From contig BDSU01000036.1 of NCBI GenBank assembly GCA_002897675.1, positions 62,001 to 126,000 of the forward strand: a DNA stretch of 64,000 nt, in the 5' to 3' direction. Source of the DNA: a bacterium BMS3Abin02 (GTDB lineage: Bacteria; Actinomycetota; Acidimicrobiia; Spongiisociales; UBA4744). Both the position numbers and the translations under genes were made by a program. The notes below the pieces were generated by a model. The model searched no databases, was not told where the DNA came from, and worked only from the letters and a program-made list of their open reading frames with translations. How positions within the stretch are numbered: position 1 is the stretch's first letter; the number at the start of each line of letters is the position of its first letter. Below, one piece after another: positions 63,230 to 64,000 of this stretch.

Positions 63230-63254
63230 CCCGTTCTTGTGACGGTCGAACGGG
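63230..63254 (+). terminator. Weak hairpin after UPF0182 gene
   Basis: CCCGTTC (63230-63236) and GAACGGG (63248-63254) form a 7-bp stem with an 11-base loop directly at the stop codon. It is not followed by a T-run. Confidence 0.4.
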
Positions 63255-63285
63255 ATAGTCCCATTCGCACGTCACAGGAACGCCT

Positions 63286-63313
63286 GCAATCGGTTTGCAA
63301 TCGAACCGCAATC
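63286..63313. promoter_or_regulatory. Three GCAATC direct repeats with 11-bp spacing (SARP-type site)
   Basis: GCAATC occurs at 63286, 63297 and 63308, exactly 11 bp apart, upstream of the YdhR-like gene. Direct heptamer-like repeats at one-turn spacing are the usual DNA target of SARP/BTAD-family activators, and a BTAD/SARP gene starts at 63743. Binding is an inference. Confidence 0.6.
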
Positions 63314-63359
63314 TCCCGATGACAAGCTCGGTCTGTCAGCAAGATCGAAAGGAGATCCC

Positions 63360-63671
63360 GTGCACGCCGTCTTGATCACATTCCAATCGTCCGTCGGGTT
63401 GGACCAGCTCGATGAACCGTTCGCAGCCTACGCAAGAGGTCTGCGTGACGTCCCGGGCCTGGTCTCGAAAACATGGATTCGCGACCAGGCTACGTTCGGT
63501 GGCTTCCATTTGTTTGTGGGGAGAGCTGAAGCCGACAGTTACCTCTCGAGCCAGATGGTGGCGGACCTCACTGCAAACCGAGCATTCTCGGACTTCGAGA
63601 TTCGACACTTCGAGGTGCTCGAGCGTCAAAGCTTGCAGAACGGCATGCCGACCGTTCCGTTGGCCGTGTGA
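63360..63671 (+). CDS. YdhR-like monooxygenase-fold protein
   Basis: This 103-residue small protein has the dimeric alpha/beta-barrel pattern of the YdhR family: HAVLITFQSSVGLDQLDEPF, RDVPGLVSKTWIRDQATFGG, FHLFVGRAEADSYLSSQMVA and FEIRHFEVLERQSLQ. The family is proposed to contain monooxygenases of small aromatic or quinone substrates. The start is a GTG at 63360 with AAAGGAGATCC upstream. A row of SARP-type repeats lies 47 bp before it. Confidence 0.78.
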   Translation: MHAVLITFQSSVGLDQLDEPFAAYARGLRDVPGLVSKTWIRDQATFGGFHLFVGRAEADSYLSSQMVADLTANRAFSDFEIRHFEVLERQSLQNGMPTVPLAV

Positions 63672-63742
63672 TCCCCCCTGGCCTCTCGCACGTGGCGGCC
63701 GGTGGCCGTCCGCGCGGGAGGCCACTTGCGTAAGGTTGGATG

Positions 63743-64000
63743 AATGGACTTTCGAGTTCTGGGGTCGCTGGAGGTGACCACTCGCGGCACGGACGTCTCG
63801 GTGGGTGGATCGAAACAACGCGCCCTGCTGGTCCGTCTTCTGATCGATAGTGGCCACATCGTGCCGACCGGCCGGCTCATCGACGACCTCTGGGGTGAGG
63901 ATCCTCCCCCGACGGCAGTCAAGACGCTGCGAACCTATGTCGCGCGTCTTCGCAAGGTCCTGGAACCCGACCGGCCGCCGGGGGGCGAACCCGCGATCCT
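63743..64000 (+). CDS. BTAD/SARP-family transcriptional activator, N-terminal part (cut by right edge)
   Basis: The first 86 codons show an OmpR-like winged helix of the SARP/AfsR family: MDFRVLGSLEVTTRGTDVSV, GGSKQRALLVRLLIDSGHIV, PTGRLIDDLWGEDPPPTAVK and TLRTYVARLRKVLEPDRPPG. The family usually has a BTAD domain after this and sometimes NB-ARC/TPR parts; those lie beyond the window. The ATG at 63743 has TAAGGT ending 7 bp upstream, so a leaderless mRNA is likely. The 11-bp-spaced repeats at 63286-63313 could be its target. Confidence 0.88.

Follow-up and report, generated by a model that had tools for sequence, protein, structure and literature searches.

The right end of the window, by which we mean the whole 64,000-nt stretch of DNA analyzed, carries a YdhR-like gene preceded by three short direct repeats and followed on the same strand by the 5′ part of an AfsR-type SARP gene (Table 1); both genes are real by profile and ribosome-site evidence. 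The YdhR-like ORF has the ribosome site AAAGGAGA, and in profile searches its product belongs to the Pfam ydhR family PF08803 (E 9.8e-10; 38.7 bits against a cut-off of 27.1). Its AlphaFold model is of high confidence (pLDDT 91), with E. coli YdhR (1wd6) as the best PDB fold match (TM 0.77-0.78), which places it in the dimeric alpha/beta-barrel (DABB) fold; among solved folds the closest are E. coli YdhR and SnoaB, a cofactor-free oxygenase. The window protein thus has in common with E. coli YdhR (1wd6, 2asy, 2hiq; ~24% identity) and with DABB monooxygenases such as SnoaB a small DABB fold, and any oxygenase role would be suggested at the level of fold, by similarity to cofactor-free monooxygenases. 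A viral search found no copies of the gene.

Table 1. Features at the right end of the window (window positions; L003 positions where given)
Feature	Positions	Strand	Details
51-bp dyad element	63232..63282		13-bp arms flanking an N25 core; immediately follows the UPF0182 stop; 3 bp separate it from the first GCAATC
SARP-type repeat 1	63283..63293	+	CCTGCAATCGG; GCAATC at 63286-63291
SARP-type repeat 2	63294..63304	+	TTTGCAATCGA; GCAATC at 63297-63302
SARP-type repeat 3	63305..63315	+	ACCGCAATCTC; GCAATC at 63308-63313
Putative weak -10 element CAAGCT	63323..63328	+	9 bp 3′ of the repeat-3 GCAATC; proposed by analogy with AfsR/afsS
YdhR-like gene	63360..63671	+	103 aa, GTG start, predicted DABB fold (PF08803, AlphaFold, PDB fold match)
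GC-rich hairpin between ydhR and the SARP gene (72-nt gap)	63678..63725 (approximate)	+	RNA fold of 63665-63743: -43.1 kcal/mol, z -2.9
AfsR-type SARP gene, 5′ part	63744..64000	+	ATG at 63744; whole gene L003:6745-10419, 1224 aa

The SARP gene begins 72 nt 3′ of the ydhR stop, where the earlier note had placed it, and encodes an OmpR-type DNA-binding domain (Trans_reg_C), BTAD, a STAND ATPase, TPR and a C-terminal class III cyclase, in that order. The N-terminal OmpR-type domain (PF00486) followed by BTAD (PF03704, 7e-43) is that of a large SARP and matches the AfsR and EmbR structures; the DNA-binding domain also matches regX3. For the STAND ATPase and TPR part, AAA_22 scores above its cut-off and NB-ARC just below, with a P-loop, GIGGAGKT, at residue 297 and a TPR_12 match. 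The same order of OmpR-type, BTAD, STAND ATPase and TPR domains is found in AfsR of Streptomyces coelicolor (PDB 8jke, 8hvr, 8k60), resemblance to which spans the first 600 residues at a score far below the AfsR equivalog cut-off. The AfsR residues that contact DNA (W74, P79, R87, T88, R92, R94 and K95) are kept in the window protein as W50, P55, R63, T64, R68, R70 and K71.

Unlike AfsR, the window SARP adds the C-terminal class III cyclase (PF00211, 1.3e-12; L003:9910-10416). Its motif set is apparently complete (FTDMEGST at 1059, KHTGDGF at 1101 and DLFGTAMNLAAR at 1157) and supplies what we take to be the two metal-binding Asp residues, the substrate Lys/Asp and the Asn/Arg transition-state pair. 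The cyclase is probably active. The domain is absent from both intact orthologous SARPs scanned (G092 and G090). PimR, of the SARP-LAL type, has a C-terminal half described as guanylate-cyclase-like but reportedly has no N-terminal guanylate cyclase signature; the window SARP, by contrast, has the full motif set. The ydhR neighbor is the one SARP gene detected in this genome, which leaves it as the sole SARP candidate for binding the repeats.

The three GCAATC copies lie exactly 11 bp apart, in the register that the earlier note had described, with 46 nt between the last copy and the ydhR start codon; the direct repeats of SARP operators are spaced by 11 or 22 bp. Within the 64-kb window GCAATC is the sole hexamer that occurs three times at 11-bp spacing, and no such hexamer triplet arose in 40 Markov-simulated windows; the local chance, for the 130-nt intergenic stretch, is p ~5e-5. 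The genome search for the repeat that the earlier note had proposed placed GCAATC-N5-GCAATC at the ydhR locus and, as an exact pattern, nowhere else in the 2.51-Mb genome. A genome-wide regulon was considered and rejected: the exact motif occurs only at ydhR, and the relaxed motif gave nine other sites scattered through the genome. A promoter scan of the ydhR upstream region found no consensus sigma-70 promoter (-35/-10). The spacing of CAAGCT is plausible against the ~8 bp expected from the 3′ repeat to the -10, its sequence is weak, and the -10 elements of the four ydhR promoters compared below are likewise weak and not clearly conserved. Between ydhR and the SARP gene, the GC-rich hairpin has no T-run and is a possible attenuator.

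This layout of three 11-mers, CAAGCT 9 bp on and then the ribosome site fits known SARP operators, in which heptamers recur at 11-bp intervals beside a -10 (PMC5930380, PMC10936776). Known SARPs bind 11-bp-spaced direct repeats whose 3′ copy lies ~8 bp from the -10, and they do so as side-by-side dimers, which in addition hold region 4 of sigma (PMC10936776). AfsR activates afsS from direct repeats with an 11-bp period that cover a poor -35, an arrangement like that of the window, and the afsS -10 is CACTGT (PMC10936776). The two systems differ in box sequence (YGCAAYC, with Y for C or T, in place of the afs box), in target (a predicted DABB target here, AfsS for AfsR) and in host, which here is not a streptomycete. 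The box of PimR, CGGCAAG, is present in three copies with 4-bp spacers, of which at least two heptamers are needed and three work best (PMC5930380). The PimR, SanG and PolR regulators share with the window the three (or two) heptamers, the 4-nt spacers and the GCAA core, and PimR likewise has one target next door; unlike the window SARP they govern antibiotic clusters, and in the case of PimR there is no overlap between operator and -35.

We examined orthologous loci. Of 138 genomes in the order, four have a close YdhR-like homologue: this one and the distantly related G082, G090 and G092, which belong to other genera. Searches of the class, order and phylum returned the same four loci and two distant ones. 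The three orthologous YdhR-like proteins are 57-59% identical, with the SARP domain at 47-49%, and in all three loci an AfsR-type gene lies directly adjacent to ydhR on the same strand. YGCAAYC-like repeats at 11-bp spacing precede ydhR by 42-65 nt in all three, so that the absence of the repeats upstream of orthologues, which the earlier note had named as grounds for abandoning its idea, was not observed at any SARP-adjacent orthologue. There are three copies in G082 (CGCAATC, CGCAACC and TGCAATC), two in G090 and two in G092 (TGCAACA, then GCAACC). Across the four loci, a small comparative set, GCAA is invariant in 10 repeat copies and the 11-bp spacing holds throughout, while the sequence flanking the repeats is not alignable by eye. 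The relaxed pattern GCAAY-N6-GCAAYC, set after the orthologues had been seen, has 7-16 matches per whole genome (both strands) in G082, G090 and G092, which makes a match in a given 150-nt upstream stretch ~2-4e-4 likely in each; G092 counts only by this relaxed pattern, its repeats under strict GCAATC scoring not being significant (p 0.06).

The gene order is swapped in G082, where the SARP gene comes first and ydhR second, and the repeats still lie directly before ydhR; that they stay with ydhR despite the swap indicates that they belong to the ydhR promoter. Two further observations concern G082. Its SARP gene is split into two overlapping frames (L023:1141-1249), which points either to a misassembly or to a gene in decay, and GCAACC-N5-GCAACC pairs cluster on contig 70, the contig of its module (L090:1134, 1419 and 2169; L091:1243). 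On inspection, these clustered TGCAACC pairs match no clear promoter and were rejected.

Loci that lack the pairing served as controls. Three close YdhR-like homologues from Chloroflexota (Dehalococcoidia), ~60% identical to the window protein, have neither a SARP neighbor (by tblastn) nor the repeats. One of them (L019) has a consensus sigma-70 promoter, TTGACA-17-TAGTAT; a promoter scan did not confirm one in the other two. The repeat pattern is also absent from most of 26 other SARP loci fetched from relatives, and the three matches among these are situated either inside the SARP start or well away from it. The suggestion that the repeats are a SARP-regulated site of ydhR thus gains support, at the level of sequence comparison, from their conservation with a SARP neighbor and their absence from close homologues without one.

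Given the repeats themselves, the way they are conserved together with the gene pair, the intact DNA-binding helix and the sole detected SARP, it is probable that the GCAATC repeats are a SARP operator through which the adjacent AfsR-type protein activates ydhR. From this evidence we infer a switch (binding, activation, -10 element, start site, autoregulation and gating signal alike) in which the AfsR-type protein would bind the 11-bp repeats side by side on one helix face, overlapping a poor -35 region, and the bound SARP would recruit RNA polymerase to the weak -10 near 63323 and so turn on the YdhR-like gene. Where ydhR precedes the regulator gene, as in the window, read-through could give positive autoregulation of the SARP, and the ATPase, TPR and cyclase domains would presumably gate activation by some signal.

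OmpR/PhoP-type boxes are also 11-bp direct repeats, and OmpR-type regulators share the SARP DNA-binding fold. The repeats could thus bind another helical-phase regulator of, for example, the OmpR/PhoP response-regulator type, with the SARP neighbor incidental, and the regX3 match of the SARP DNA-binding domain is in keeping with such kinship; on the other hand, the repeats track the SARP neighbor at four loci, one of them swapped, and are gone in homologues without a SARP, and the module has no other gene able to be the regulator, so that we regard this alternative as unlikely. A second alternative keeps the SARP as the binding protein and changes its role, to that of a repressor or of a purely autoregulatory factor for the downstream SARP gene. 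With ydhR upstream of the SARP gene on the same strand, at a gap of ~60-75 nt, in three of the four loci, the operator could indeed also serve the SARP gene; however, in G082 it is the SARP gene that comes first, and the repeats, placed between the two genes, serve ydhR; moreover, known SARPs are activators whose repeats cover a poor -35, the arrangement seen in the window. This role is quite improbable. That the repeats are a functionless relic, upstream DNA carried along as the module spread as a unit, would suit its sporadic, cassette-like distribution, but is very improbable, since ydhR and the SARP domain have diverged and the flanks are unalignable, yet GCAA and the 11-bp period persist, which is not expected of neutral DNA.

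Beyond the window the SARP gene runs to its end and is followed by a 51-bp dyad element, mtnB, mtnA and tRNA-Met; we read the contig to its last base, 5.3 kb past the window; the mtnB-like and mtnA-like genes (methionine salvage), named from their sequences, are on the strand opposite the SARP gene. The flanks of the module are thus UPF0182 on one side and mtnB, mtnA and tRNA-Met on the other, and between UPF0182 and the contig end there are no biosynthetic genes near the SARP gene. The earlier note had imagined a small redox or secondary-metabolite locus continuing past the right edge and had advised looking there for biosynthetic genes; a biosynthetic cluster past the edge is rejected by what the contig contains up to its end, and the secondary-metabolite part of the idea is not supported. 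The redox part survives only as the fold similarity of the YdhR-like protein to cofactor-free monooxygenases.

The module (L003:6233-10471) is bracketed by two copies of the dyad element, at 63232-63282 and L003:10421-10471. The element has the form CGTTCTCGTGACG-N25-CGTCACGAGAACG, is constant in length and mostly follows gene stops by a few bases; the window copy folds as RNA at -33.8 kcal/mol (z -5.8). At up to 3 mismatches there are 36 copies in this genome, including L003:10421-10471; a copy also lies at L100:1501-1551. Relatives have 59 (G001), 33 (G084; another family, with arms CGTTCTTGTGACG) and 1 (G046), and the element is absent from the other relatives searched. Rfam gave no match at L003, the one locus checked (two copies); the element probably represents a family of REP-like sequences or bidirectional terminators. 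In G001, a genome of the same genus, ydhR and the SARP gene are both missing, and the UPF0182 gene is joined to an mtnB-like gene by one dyad element (L112:2140-2190). Two copies around the module here and one at the empty site there indicate a cassette gained or lost, and gain between elements fits as well as loss by recombination between two copies.

More distant YdhR-like homologues, from Chloroflexota and other members of the class, adjoin an AAA/STAND gene in five of five cases examined, a small sample that leaves out the four weakest YdhR matches (L011-L014). The neighboring regulators are of the STAND or AAA_16 kind, LuxR-type at L024 and L025 and with a C-terminal OmpR-type domain at L026; no DNA-binding domain was seen in the available part of the neighbor gene at L028 and L029. 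The repeated occurrence of such pairs, with regulators of several types, may reflect a functional link. A conjecture that we hold only loosely, and consider doubtful, is that DABB proteins of the YdhR-like kind serve STAND-type regulators across phyla as dedicated partners, small enzymes that make or clear their signal, while the DNA-binding part differs (SARP, LuxR-type or C-terminal OmpR-type).

Taken as a predicted system, the ydhR-SARP locus would be a known kind of SARP switch, and what is new is the predicted box sequence and the unusual target. For an actinobacterial lineage that has been little studied, it yields a predicted SARP box, YGCAAYC repeated at 11-bp intervals, together with one local target; the literature searched contained no paper that mentions both Acidimicrobiia and the SARP family. 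The locus suggests that the work of large SARPs extends beyond antibiotic clusters to free-standing switches of two genes, and that one such SARP is fused to a probably active cyclase. The pairing with YdhR-like proteins may help to identify the signal to which these STAND regulators respond.
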